Positions 26,776 to 36,904 of a stretch of 64,000 bases of DNA are shown here, piece by piece. The first letter of the stretch is position 1. The number at the start of each line of letters is the position of its first letter. This DNA comes from Bacillota bacterium. Its GTDB lineage: Bacteria > Bacillota > Clostridia > Monoglobales > Firm-18. Under the pieces are notes generated by a model that worked only from the letters and a program-made list of their open reading frames with translations, ran no database searches and had not been told where the DNA came from. Position numbers and translations under genes: made by a program. The stretch lies in the NCBI GenBank assembly GCA_022706765.1, contig JAKJBX010000010.1, forward strand, positions 1 to 64,000. Direction: 5' to 3'.

Positions 26776-26887
26776 AGCCGCCCCTTTGGGCGGCTATTGA
26801 CAGAGAAATTTCATGAAAATCATTAAAATAGCCGATTGAGAGAAAAAGAGATGTAACTATCTATCGAAACAGTTACATCTCTTTTTT
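26776..26887 (+). terminator. Two hairpins after the GntR-ABC operon
   Basis: AGCCGCCC-CTTT-GGGCGGCT (26776-26795) is followed by a weak T content. A second hairpin with 16-bp arms (26843-26858 and 26871-26886, AGAGATGTAACT...AGTTACATCTCT) has an A-run before and a T-run after, so it can terminate both ways. The stretch 26888-27054 shows nothing I can name. Confidence 0.7.
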
Positions 26888-27054: not shown

Positions 27055-28056
27055 TTACTTCTTCAAAGATTCTTCCACCGCGACAGCGACCGCAACTGTC
27101 GCTCCTACCATGGGGTTATTACCCATTCCTAAGAATCCCATCATTTCAACATGTGCCGGAACAGAGGAGGATCCTGCAAATTGTGCGCTTGAGTGCATTC
27201 TTCCCATGGTATCTGTCATCCCATATGAAGCAGGACCTGCCGCCATATTATCGGGGTGAAGGGTTCTGCCCGTACCGCCGCCCGAAGCAACGGAAAAGTA
27301 TTTTTTTCCTTGCTCGACGCACTCTTTTTTATATGTGCCTGCGACAGGATGCTGAAATCTTGTGGGATTGGTGGAATTTCCGGTAATCGAAACATCAACA
27401 CCCTCCAAGTGCATAATAGCCACACCTTCGCGCACATCATCAGCGCCGTAACAGTTTACTTGGGCGCGTTCGCCCTTAGAATAAGGCATCTTCCTTACCA
27501 CCTTAACTTCACCGGTTGCGTAATTAAACTCCGTCTGGCAATAGGTGAAGCCGTTAATTCTGGAAATAATCATGGCGGCGTCCTTGCCTAAACCGTTTAA
27601 TATAACACGCAAAGGCTTGTTGCGCACCTTGTTGGCACTTTTGGCAATCCCAATAGCACCTTCGGCAGCGGCAAAGGATTCATGCCCTGCCAGAAAAGCG
27701 AAACAGTTTGTTTCCTCCCTTAGCAGCATTGCTCCAAGGTTTCCATGACCTAAGCCTACTTTTCTGTCCTCCGCGACAGATCCGGGAATACAAAATGCCT
27801 GCAAGCCGATTCCAATTGCTTCCGCAGCCTCTGGTGCGGATTTTCTGTTCTTTTTTATGGCGATTGCAGCGCCTGCCACATAAGCCCAGCAGGTGTTTTC
27901 AAACGCGATCGGCTGTATTTCCTTCACAATACGATATGGATCAATCCCATTTTCAACGCAGATTTGTTTCGCTTCTTCCAGCGAATTAATATCGTATTGT
28001 TTTAAAACTGCATTGATTTTTTCAACTCTTCTTTCGTATCCTTCAAATGATATCAT
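27055..28056 (-). CDS. GGGtGRT protein of unknown function
   Basis: A 333-residue protein of the family named after the Gly-rich motif SGGGTGRTLHPDNMAAGPAS near residue 280. Other conserved-looking blocks are GHGNLGAMLL, FAFLAGHESFAAAEGAIGIAK and the C-terminal GMGNNPMVGATVAVAVAVEE. Function is not known; it is typically encoded next to a NifU-like scaffold, as here. It is the last gene of the operon starting after the fluoride-type riboswitch, and lies 19 nt after the scaffold gene. Confidence 0.85.
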   Translation of the reverse strand: MISFEGYERRVEKINAVLKQYDINSLEEAKQICVENGIDPYRIVKEIQPIAFENTCWAYVAGAAIAIKKNRKSAPEAAEAIGIGLQAFCIPGSVAEDRKVGLGHGNLGAMLLREETNCFAFLAGHESFAAAEGAIGIAKSANKVRNKPLRVILNGLGKDAAMIISRINGFTYCQTEFNYATGEVKVVRKMPYSKGERAQVNCYGADDVREGVAIMHLEGVDVSITGNSTNPTRFQHPVAGTYKKECVEQGKKYFSVASGGGTGRTLHPDNMAAGPASYGMTDTMGRMHSSAQFAGSSSVPAHVEMMGFLGMGNNPMVGATVAVAVAVEESLKK

Positions 28057-28075: not shown

Positions 28076-28768
28076 TTATTCGTATCTTGGGTTAATGTAT
28101 TTTACCGCCTCGTCAAAACGGCCGTATTTTCCTTTCGCCTTCTCCAGCGCTTCCTTCGGATCGACGCCTTTTTGAATGGCATCCATCATTTTTCCAAGGT
28201 GCATGAACTCATAACCGATAACAAGGTCATCCTTATCCAATGCCATCTTTGTGACATAACCCTCGGCCATTTCCAGATAACGGCAGCCCTTTGCCTTGCT
28301 GCCGAACATGGTGCCAACCTGGCTGCGCAAGCCTTTTCCTAAATCTTCCAAGCTTGCGCCAATCGGAAGCCCGCCTTCCGAAAAAGCGGTCTGCGATCTT
28401 CCATATACCATTTGCAAAAACAATTCTCTCATTGCCACATTAATGGCATCACAAACAAGGTCGGTATTCAACGCTTCCAGTATTGTTTTTCCCGGCAGTA
28501 TTTCAGATGCCATCGCCGCCGAATGTGTCATGCCGCTGCATCCTAAGGTTTCCACTAACGCTTCTTCAACGATACCATCCTTTATATTCAGCGTAAGCTT
28601 ACAGGCGCCCTGCTGCGGCGCACACCAACCAACGCCATGCGTCAACCCTGAAATATCGCTGACCTCTTTGGCTTTGATCCATTGACCTTCCTCCGGTATC
28701 GGCGCGGGACCGTGATTCGCGCCTTTGGCAACGCGGCACATGTTACTGACCTCTGTTGAATAAATCAT
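28076..28768 (-). CDS. NifU/IscU-like iron-sulfur scaffold protein
   Basis: A 230-residue protein with an N-terminal IscU-like domain. Visible cysteines are GWCAPQQGAC near residue 50 and LGCSGMTHSAA near 76, matching the metal-binding region of the U-type scaffolds. The C-terminal half includes GCRYLEMAEGYVTKMAL. The protein may hold an Fe-S cluster or other metal for the neighbouring GGGtGRT protein. It sits between the DUF6062 gene and the GGGtGRT gene in the riboswitch-controlled operon. Confidence 0.82.
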   Translation of the reverse strand: MIYSTEVSNMCRVAKGANHGPAPIPEEGQWIKAKEVSDISGLTHGVGWCAPQQGACKLTLNIKDGIVEEALVETLGCSGMTHSAAMASEILPGKTILEALNTDLVCDAINVAMRELFLQMVYGRSQTAFSEGGLPIGASLEDLGKGLRSQVGTMFGSKAKGCRYLEMAEGYVTKMALDKDDLVIGYEFMHLGKMMDAIQKGVDPKEALEKAKGKYGRFDEAVKYINPRYE

Positions 28769-28786
28769 ACAAACACTCCTTATATA

Positions 28787-29437
28787 TTATTTTCTAATAC
28801 CTGTTTTGTCATTGGTAATGAAAACAGCTTTTTTCCAAGAAATTTTCAGCTCCTCTGTCCAAGGCTCCTGCGAAAATCTGTAATCGTTTCGTTGTTGTAT
28901 CTCTTCCAAGTCTTTCAGCATGGATTCGTATTTCTGTTTGGTTGGCTTTTTTATGCCTTCCAATACATTCGCCCGGATTCCTTTTAAGCTTGACAGTAAT
29001 ACGAGATGGGGATAACAAAGCATTCCGGCATCTTCATATCTTTTTCGGAATGCAGCATCCAAAAAGGTATCGGCAAACGATTGTAAATACTGCTTTTCAG
29101 ATAGGATTGCCTGCTCACAAAAAATACAGCGGGAATGGGTTAGCGCTTCTTCATTGTATTTGCCCAAGTTCATATGATATATCGCCTGATGTATCAAATC
29201 ATGATAAATCAGGGCGTGGGCAAGCGGATCACCGGAATTCATCAGCATTGACGCATGGTAATTGCACAAGCCATATGACGATTTTATTTTCTCACGAACC
29301 GAAGAATCATTCACGCCTTCGTATAAAATGCTCCCCATAAAGCTTTTGGTGCGTTGTAAAATCAACTCGCATACCGGGCACCTATTTCCCTCCATTCGGT
29401 CATAAAGCTCATGCCACACCATATCTTTTGCCATCAT
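28787..29437 (-). CDS. DUF6062-like cysteine-rich protein
   Basis: A 216-residue protein with the same Cys/His layout as the DUF6062 protein at 12346-13065: CPVCE near residue 20, GLCNYH near 55, CIFCE near 105 and CYPHL near 145. The start is ATG 29437, six nt after AGGAGG. It is the first gene of the riboswitch operon, ahead of the NifU-like scaffold. A redox or metal-handling partner of the scaffold is a guess from its thiol content. Confidence 0.75.
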   Translation of the reverse strand: MMAKDMVWHELYDRMEGNRCPVCELILQRTKSFMGSILYEGVNDSSVREKIKSSYGLCNYHASMLMNSGDPLAHALIYHDLIHQAIYHMNLGKYNEEALTHSRCIFCEQAILSEKQYLQSFADTFLDAAFRKRYEDAGMLCYPHLVLLSSLKGIRANVLEGIKKPTKQKYESMLKDLEEIQQRNDYRFSQEPWTEELKISWKKAVFITNDKTGIRK

Positions 29438-29457
29438 CTGTTTCCTCCTGTTTAAAC

Positions 29458-29545
29458 AAAAAAAGCCAATGATTCTACGAAAATTCGCAGAAGTCATCAG
29501 CTTTCAAAGCAGTTTTGGCAATCACCACGGGAGAACTTCATTCCC
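29458..29545 (-). promoter_or_regulatory. Fluoride riboswitch (crcB motif) with intrinsic terminator
   Basis: Read on the minus strand, P1 is GGGA (29545-29542) with UCCC (29532-29529). The pseudoknot strands GAAGU (29539-29535) and ACUUC (29494-29490) are complementary. AAACUGC...GCUGAUGACUUC reproduces the conserved crcB block. The 3' strand is also the 5' arm of a 16-pair terminator (29501-29485 with 29480-29465, one bulge) followed by UUUUUUU (29464-29458). Ligand binding and termination are therefore mutually exclusive, as in known fluoride riboswitches. About 13 nt are inserted between P1 and the AAACUGC block. Confidence 0.83.
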
Positions 29546-29563
29546 TAAAATTTATTTTAATTA

Positions 29564-29592
29564 ATTATATCACATGATTAAAATAAAATCAA
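29564..29592 (-). promoter_or_regulatory. Promoter of the fluoride-riboswitch operon
   Basis: On the minus strand TTGATT (29587-29592) and TATAAT (29564-29569) are 17 nt apart. The start site would lie about 12 nt before the riboswitch P1 stem. Confidence 0.6.
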
Positions 29593-35066: not shown

Positions 35067-36758
35067 TTATTCCACAAACGCATATTTGCCAACAAACAGT
35101 ATCTCGCCGCTGACGTCATCACGGATAAAGTACGTAAACGGCTTGTCAAACTTGACGGGAACCGGCTGGTCGGTCGGCATGCTTGTTGTGCTGACCATCA
35201 CCGCCGTGACCGCTGCCGCTTCCGTACCGTTTTCATCAACCTCGATGAAGGTCTTATGGATGACCTTTGAGATATACGCATTTTCCGGCAGCGCCGTGAA
35301 CATCGGCTTTAAGTCCGCCGCATCGGGGCTGAACGCCGCCTTGACGCCCAATGCGCCCAGCGCATCAATCAACTCCATCGAATATTCGGTCTTGAACTTC
35401 GGCAGGCTCAGCGCAAGTCGTGCCGGCTGCATTTTCCCGACATACTGCTCAAAATCCTCTGCGCCCTTTTCAGACATCGCAAGGTACATGCTTGTCTTGC
35501 CGTCCTTGTACGGCAGTTTCACCATCGTGACGGTCTCATCTCCATAATATGCATAGCTTTGCGTCGCATTCATAAAGTCAATTTGATGCTCAGCGCCGTT
35601 TTTGTCAATAAACGCATCCTTTGCGGTGGCTTTTTCATCAAACTGGGTCTGCCATTCCCCTTTGAAGTAAATGGTATTCACCAGCGCCGCCAAAAAATCG
35701 GGGTCGTCAATGACCTTCCTAATGCGCTCCTGCGTCTTTTCACTGACCCACTTGTTGATTTCACTCACCGCATCGGCGTTGGTGACCGTTTTGCTGTCGG
35801 CATTATAAAAGCCGGTGATCTTATCCTTAAAACTCTGCGAAAAATCCACACTCAAGCCTTTAAAATAATCGGTATTCAGCCAGATGGAATTAGAAATGTT
35901 CAAGTTTACCTTATCGTTTTGGCTGTATTCTGCGATCAAGTCCTTCGTAAAAAGGTTGAACGCATCCAAATCGGTCACGCCGATAGCTTTTAAAATCTCC
36001 GCCCGGGTCACACCGTCGGCGCCGTTTGCCGCCATGGCGAACGCCAGCTTTATGCTGAGCGGCGAGAACATATAATTCTTATCCGCCGGCATCACGGCGT
36101 TCATCTGCCAGCTAAATGCGGTTTCTTCATATTTATAACCCTTTTGGATAAGGTCAAAGATACGCACCGTGGTCGCCGTCGCCTGCTCGCGGGTGATAAA
36201 GCTTTTGGGCGCAAAGAAACCCTCCGTATCCCCCCGCATAATACGGGCGCAATACATGTGATACACCGCGCCCCTTGCCCACTCGGCGATCTCTCCCTCA
36301 TCCTGATAGCCGTATGCGTCGTCCACATAGGCTTTCATGATGCCAAGCTTGTTGAGTATCCTGTTCAGGATCGTTGCGGCTTCCTCACGGGTGATGGGGT
36401 CTTCGGGGGCAAACAGCTCATCGCCCTTGCCGTATATGATGCCATTGGCATACAGCGACAGGATGTGTTCGCCGCCTGCGTCATTGAACGGGTTTCTGAT
36501 AAACTGTACGGTTCCCAGCTTAAATGCGGTTTTATTCAGCATTTTATAGACCAGATCGCAAAATTCGCTGCGGGTGATGTCCTGTATGTAGCTGCCGCCA
36601 AAGCTGTCCGGGAGGATGCCCAGCGTATTTGCACGGTCGAGTTCGGCTGCCGCCCAGTCGGAGGCGGTGACCTGCGGTGAGCCTGCGGTTTCGGCAAGCA
36701 CGCCGGCTTGACCGGTCAGCATCATCAACACCAAAACCCAAGCATATATTTTTTTCAT
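35067..36758 (-). CDS. Secreted SLH-domain serpin (serine protease inhibitor)
   Basis: The 563 residues begin with a signal peptide (MKKIYAWVLVLMMLTGQAG), then about three S-layer homology repeats (AELDRANTLGILPDSF, NPFNDAGGEHILSLYANGII, EWARGAVYHMYCARIMRG) for wall attachment. From about residue 215 a serpin domain follows with NAVMPADKNYMFSPLSIKLAFAMAANGA. The hinge ENGTEAAAVTAV has the small residues of inhibitory serpins. Counting from the hinge puts P1-P1' near Thr-Ser in VSTTSMP. I start at ATG 36758 (MKKIY). Likely a surface-bound protease trap. Confidence 0.9.
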   Translation of the reverse strand: MKKIYAWVLVLMMLTGQAGVLAETAGSPQVTASDWAAAELDRANTLGILPDSFGGSYIQDITRSEFCDLVYKMLNKTAFKLGTVQFIRNPFNDAGGEHILSLYANGIIYGKGDELFAPEDPITREEAATILNRILNKLGIMKAYVDDAYGYQDEGEIAEWARGAVYHMYCARIMRGDTEGFFAPKSFITREQATATTVRIFDLIQKGYKYEETAFSWQMNAVMPADKNYMFSPLSIKLAFAMAANGADGVTRAEILKAIGVTDLDAFNLFTKDLIAEYSQNDKVNLNISNSIWLNTDYFKGLSVDFSQSFKDKITGFYNADSKTVTNADAVSEINKWVSEKTQERIRKVIDDPDFLAALVNTIYFKGEWQTQFDEKATAKDAFIDKNGAEHQIDFMNATQSYAYYGDETVTMVKLPYKDGKTSMYLAMSEKGAEDFEQYVGKMQPARLALSLPKFKTEYSMELIDALGALGVKAAFSPDAADLKPMFTALPENAYISKVIHKTFIEVDENGTEAAAVTAVMVSTTSMPTDQPVPVKFDKPFTYFIRDDVSGEILFVGKYAFVE

Positions 36759-36904
36759 GAACATCCCATCCTTTACAGTTTGATATTCTTTTGACGCAGC
36801 ATAGCGTGATATAGTTCCATTATACAATGCAAAAAGCCACTTGGTCAAGCCTTAGTGACCGTGCATTTTATGTATACGCTTGACACGAAACGTATAAACA
36901 TATA

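Follow-up and report, generated by a model that had tools for sequence, protein, structure and literature searches.

A fluoride-type riboswitch aptamer stands at the head of a three-gene operon in the stretch of DNA analysed here (the window: 64,000 nucleotides, positions 1 to 64,000 of contig JAKJBX010000010.1 from a Bacillota bacterium of the class Clostridia). The operon encodes a DUF6062-family protein, a NifU/IscU-like protein and a GGGtGRT protein. The aptamer overlaps a terminator with which it is mutually exclusive, and aptamers of the same class recur in front of nifU-GGGtGRT pairs in other genomes. It is well supported that the fluoride regulon of some Clostridia includes the nifU-GGGtGRT pair. 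We favour, with moderate confidence, a reading in which a fluoride ON riboswitch controls the three genes as part of such a regulon, their job most likely being to maintain iron or iron-sulphur (Fe-S) cofactors.

The leader RNA and its operon

The operon is read on the minus strand from 29592 to 27055, passing from a promoter-like site through aptamer and terminator to the three genes; the original prediction had covered 28787-29592, a span that ends with the DUF6062 gene. The features are listed in order of transcription, with the basis of each in brackets.

29564..29592, minus strand: promoter-like site, TTGATT-17-TATAAT with TG before the -10 (10 of 12 consensus matches; position)
29481..29554, minus strand: fluoride riboswitch aptamer, RF01734 (Rfam match)
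29534..29539, minus strand: pseudoknot 5' strand, GAAGUU (sequence; covariation)
29490..29495, minus strand: pseudoknot 3' strand, GACUUC, shared with the terminator 5' arm (sequence; covariation; folding)
29454..29505, minus strand: intrinsic terminator (expression platform), a 20-pair hairpin and U run (folding)
28787..29437, minus strand: DUF6062-family protein, 216 amino acids, CxxC/CxxH motifs (PF19538, 65.2 bits, cut-off 27)
28076..28768, minus strand: NifU/IscU-like protein, 230 amino acids (PF01592, 20.3 bits, below the cut-off of 22)
27055..28056, minus strand: GGGtGRT protein, 333 amino acids (PF14057, 646 bits)
26843..26887, minus strand: hairpin and U run after GGGtGRT (inspection of sequence)

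The leader had been described as a fluoride-type riboswitch, and this is borne out by the Rfam covariance search that the original prediction proposed: in the 64 kb window RF01734 matched over its full length (model positions 1-64) with 47.6 bits (E 4.5e-10), above the curated gathering score of 34 bits. Our own covariance model, R1, gave 79.6 bits, the window aptamer being one of its training rows. Both P1 (GGGA/UCCC) and the AAACUGC...GCUGAUGACUUC core are present as described. The five pseudoknot pairs noted earlier are also there, to which an extra U.G wobble at the top adds a sixth; in the riboswitches of B. cereus and T. petrophila a wobble at this position was found to matter for switching (PMC11077080). 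An alignment of 11 homologous aptamers (the window's own and those of other genomes), pseudoknot included, had 93.9% of its cells paired. Two-sided changes were found in six of 15 pairs (a test that counted five of the six pseudoknot pairs), compared with a mean of 2.0 for shuffles, of which one in 500 scored equally high, and sliding the structure by 1-3 columns left 0-2 such pairs. Covariation was seen in P1, P2, the variable hairpin and the pseudoknot.

The terminator hairpin (29505-29461) has 20 pairs and one bulge (-22.8 kcal/mol, z -6.6 relative to shuffles). It was correctly said to draw its 5' arm from the 3' half of the aptamer, but its length had been put at 16 pairs. Because this arm takes in the 3' sides of both the pseudoknot and P2, aptamer and terminator are mutually exclusive. 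By the logic of its class the leader would be a transcriptional ON switch, and by the same analogy fluoride is its presumed ligand. Magnesium-bound fluoride would hold the RNA as the pseudoknotted aptamer, the terminator would be blocked, and readthrough would allow all three proteins to be made. The promoter-like site ends nine bases ahead of the aptamer match, a position that fits the promoter originally claimed, but its consensus match alone is no better than chance (7 sites found against 6.3 expected).

The DUF6062 start was placed at an ATG following AGGAGG. Gaps of only 18 and 19 bases separate the three genes, which are therefore read as one transcription unit, and the hairpin at 26843-26887 is likely to mark its end; the upstream Asp23-family gene stops ahead of hairpins with T runs. 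The DUF6062 and GGGtGRT calls were upheld (65 and 646 bits against a cut-off of 27 each, the latter match spanning model positions 1-326 of 327). The NifU call survives as a resemblance but falls short of the NifU_N cut-off (20.3 against 22 bits), for which reason the second gene is termed 'NifU-like'. Elsewhere in the window, 35067-36848 (minus strand) appears by eye to encode S-layer-homology-like repeats followed by a serpin domain, possibly a surface-anchored protease inhibitor.

A family search found no CrcB or CLC-F exporter among the operon proteins. The earlier statement that the operon has no known exporter holds, but the genome carries an unlinked CrcB gene on contig C2 without a fluoride switch; no CLC gene was found in this 82%-complete assembly. 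In the same genome the space between a thioredoxin-like gene and crcB holds an almost perfect inverted repeat, some 20 bases long (L003, 1935-1984). The window switch is the only RF01734 match over the cut-off in the genome. A 24.2-bit match on contig C18, below the cut-off and antisense inside a GGDEF/HD-domain-like gene, was taken as chance.

Recurrence and setting of the switch

A search for crcB matches upstream of NifU/GGGtGRT pairs elsewhere, likewise suggested at the outset, was positive in five further genomes. Scanning 80 named GGGtGRT loci from public genomes with R1 gave confident aptamers in a Tissierellia metagenome-assembled genome (MAG; L133), Clostridium minihomine (L079), an Oscillospiraceae MAG (L075) and Faecalibacterium sp. 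An122 (L062), and a survey of relatives added a further genome (G091, locus L216). The nifU-linked aptamers are always on the same strand as the operon and just upstream of it. RF01734 exceeds the Rfam cut-off in L133, L075, L079 and G091; the Faecalibacterium aptamer scores 45.6 bits with R1 and 23.8 bits, below the cut-off, with Rfam. In a sample of 398 genomes of the phylum scanned with R1, the 48 loci that were examined included no additional nifU-linked case. Taking a switch density of about one per 9-11 Mb (from 391 genomes of the class, with genome size approximated), the five placements compare with about 0.005 expected by chance in some 109 loci, an estimate that ignores kinship; even with three independent cases P would be near 4e-8 or lower. 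When the NifU-like and GGGtGRT proteins were concatenated for a tree, accounting for the six switch-linked loci took at least four label changes. Of the 391 genomes of the class, a fluoride switch is present in 86 and a GGGtGRT gene in 191, and of the roughly 40 with both, only G000 and G091 have the two adjacent (by eye, from the listed GGGtGRT coordinates; a few places are not in that list). The link is therefore recurrent but rare.

In C. minihomine and G091 the P1 loop reads AAAG in place of AAUG, which might suggest a variant aptamer for another ligand. The window RNA retains AAUG and the conserved core letters and reaches 47.6 bits, however, and its relatives are co-located with classic fluoride genes, so that we regard a different ligand as highly improbable.

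Inorganic pyrophosphatase is a classic fluoride-inhibited enzyme. In C. minihomine it is the first gene under the switch, followed by nifU and GGGtGRT in one transcription unit. A universal stress protein gene follows the pair in L133; like the pyrophosphatase, it is a fluoride- or stress-related neighbour. Behind the pair in L075 come another fluoride aptamer and a Na+/H+ exchanger, and in G091 GGGtGRT is followed by a remnant of CrcB, a second aptamer and two MutS-like genes. Elsewhere in these genomes fluoride switches drive an antiporter (G423, G426) or CrcB (G424). A separate fluoride switch, in L199, has an enolase (named from its sequence) under it. These settings bear on the main rival to cofactor maintenance, namely that the NifU-like and GGGtGRT proteins (or DUF6062) are themselves fluoride-sensitive metalloproteins, the switch raising the amount of the target as it does for pyrophosphatase and enolase. 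Overproduction of a fluoride-inhibited enzyme is accepted logic (PMC11139923), and conserved Cys, His and Asp residues in GGGtGRT suggest a metal site; neither protein, on the other hand, has a known enzymatic activity or fluoride inhibition, and we give this explanation roughly a one-in-five standing. Two side observations concern fluoride riboswitches more generally. Dynamin-like GTPase genes lie downstream of them in several Clostridia (L028, a Dynamin_N protein; L015, L030, L199 and L205, named by look at sequence), and tandem aptamers occur about 90-107 bases apart (G252 C11 68817/68907; G354 C42 372/479).

DUF6062 appears from its genomic associations to be a second fluoride-linked family, often decaying. 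The canonical gene is present in 204 of the 391 class genomes, usually once, and the listed copies do not adjoin switches; the window gene is a divergent second copy in a genome that has another, better-scoring one. Divergent relatives, most of them fragments, stand beside fluoride aptamers in G179 (L196), G053 (L004), G300 (L162) and G113 (L020), before two crcB genes in L004 and L162 and after crcB in L020. We note that in these loci the DUF6062 genes are broken or truncated within fluoride-riboswitch operons, often with crcB. A weak case from another class, L263, has a full-length DUF6062 gene after a fluoride-like aptamer of 37 bits with R1, below the Rfam cut-off. The family has no convincing relative in the PDB.

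The origin of the locus raises the question of whether the switch is a hitchhiker, one that formerly drove crcB or another fluoride gene and was acquired by nifU-GGGtGRT through loss or transfer without selective value. On the concatenated-protein tree the window pair groups with Tyzzerella, Megasphaera and other Clostridia and not with the copies of its own family (L047-L049); transfer is therefore likely, and this placement in a different clade would suit a hitchhiker. So would the DUF6062 remnants within crcB operons and the CrcB remnant of G091, comprising the C-terminal 38 residues and located between GGGtGRT and the second switch (L216 3643-3756; G091 C1:554642-554755). The sister loci L112 and L118 have leaders that keep a terminator-like hairpin with no recognisable aptamer, which suggests that the switch was lost or replaced, and the leader of a close relative, L136, has a P1-like hairpin, again with no recognisable fluoride aptamer; these leaders, too, would suit a hitchhiker. 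Against this, aptamer, pseudoknot and terminator are intact in at least three to four distinct parts of the gene tree, whereas neutral switches would decay, and we consider a hitchhiking switch improbable. The leaders upstream of nifU in L112 (4098-4215), L118 and L136 are possibly decayed or replaced switches; as aptamers they were rejected, since none reaches the Rfam cut-off (L112 scores 17.4 bits with R1), and only a weak small-RNA match came out of L112 and L136 when they were scanned permissively.

The NifU-like and GGGtGRT proteins and their possible role

Of 110 GGGtGRT loci examined, 109 have nifU just upstream, and the one without it is truncated by a contig end; this constancy suggests joint action. 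The pair is present in half of the class genomes sampled (191 of 391) and also occurs in Bacteroidota, Synergistota, Deferribacterota and Pseudomonadota. Residues 49-113 of the NifU-like protein resemble IscU/SufU, and Cys 49, 56, 77 and 106 are invariant in all relatives examined; C77 aligns with IscU C63 and C49/C56 lie near C37, C49/C56 and C106 not being aligned one to one. The best Foldseek matches of its model (predicted local distance difference test, pLDDT, 62) are IscU/SufU, but weak (E 0.015 or worse). For GGGtGRT, an AlphaFold2 model with pLDDT 79 gave a best Foldseek E of 6e-3 at a template-modelling (TM) score of 0.24 and VIA-align Z of 7.5 to many Rossmann proteins, and with so low a TM score and so wide a spread a fold assignment was dropped.

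The pair is strongly down in iron-starved B. thetaiotaomicron (PMC10434189), GGGtGRT/NifU abundance shifts with iron in C. pasteurianum (PMC5395762), and in E. coli suf and iron uptake go up under anaerobic sodium fluoride (PMC10100675). Because of the iron responses in two species and the E. coli response to fluoride, iron or Fe-S maintenance is our best guess for the pair, which probably serves to maintain such cofactors; the original prediction had likewise supposed that the operon may repair or store Fe-S or metal cofactors. The operon would form part of a fluoride stress regulon in several Clostridia and would most likely see to the assembly or supply of iron or Fe-S cofactors while fluoride interferes with metal ions. 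In this scheme the NifU-like protein would be the scaffold, GGGtGRT its usual partner and DUF6062 a Cys-rich, metal-binding accessory. More tentatively, and at somewhat less than even likelihood, the pair may be a module devoted to iron or Fe-S maintenance, which anaerobes bring into play against fluoride. Action on fluoride itself, for instance by metal-fluoride sequestration or defluorination, might be imagined for an operon that has the genome's only over-cut-off switch and no exporter, but nifU-GGGtGRT is far commoner without a fluoride switch and responds to iron in other species, and we think direct handling very unlikely.

Several observations weigh against cofactor maintenance under fluoride control. 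The switch is found at six of about 111 nifU-GGGtGRT loci and most such operons lack it; the pair's role is therefore general and fluoride control an add-on. The NifU-like protein falls under Pfam and NCBIfam cut-offs (TIGR03419 25.6 bits, cut-off 187.9; TIGR01999 20.8 bits, cut-off 192.4), and GGGtGRT has no sequence relative in the PDB and no relative of known structure. Finally, the decrease under iron starvation in B. thetaiotaomicron does not simply fit a role in rescue from iron deficiency.

Comparison with known fluoride responses

Fluoride riboswitches have helped to show which cell functions fluoride harms, and the NifU-like/GGGtGRT pair adds iron or Fe-S chemistry as a likely target. 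That a fluoride switch also precedes this pair in at least five further bacteria suggests protection of Fe-S chemistry by some anaerobes when fluoride rises. If this is true, Fe-S metabolism would be a physiological target of fluoride, and a conserved pair of unknown function would gain its first defined inducing condition beyond iron supply. Fluoride would also be a testable inducer for two families of unknown function, GGGtGRT and DUF6062. A review of how cells respond to fluoride names exporters, antiporters, pyrophosphatase, enolase and formate hydrogenlyase, among others (PMC11139923), and the motif discovery paper lists mutS and transporters (PMC2864571); neither nifU-GGGtGRT nor DUF6062 is named in those lists. 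Our literature search found nothing joining GGGtGRT, NifU or DUF6062 to fluoride or fluoride riboswitches, although a riboswitch gene list from 2012 may mention them.

The window GGGtGRT protein is a full-length member of PF14057, a family for which the search found no report of fluoride control. With the NifU_N/IscU scaffolds the NifU-like protein shares a weak match around C77 (the equivalent of IscU C63) and a weak, low-confidence fold resemblance; it differs in scoring below their cut-offs, in having some 110 extra C-terminal residues and in its GGGtGRT partner. The leader agrees with the B. cereus-type crcB riboswitch in its aptamer, top-wobble pseudoknot, overlapping terminator and promoter-proximal position, whereas the operon behind it lacks CrcB, CLC-F, antiporter, enolase, pyrophosphatase and MutS. 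Like the established members of the fluoride regulon (CrcB, CLC-F, the Na+/H+ antiporter, pyrophosphatase, enolase, MutS and formate hydrogenlyase), nifU-GGGtGRT is found recurrently downstream of the aptamer, and in C. minihomine it shares a transcription unit with one of them, pyrophosphatase.
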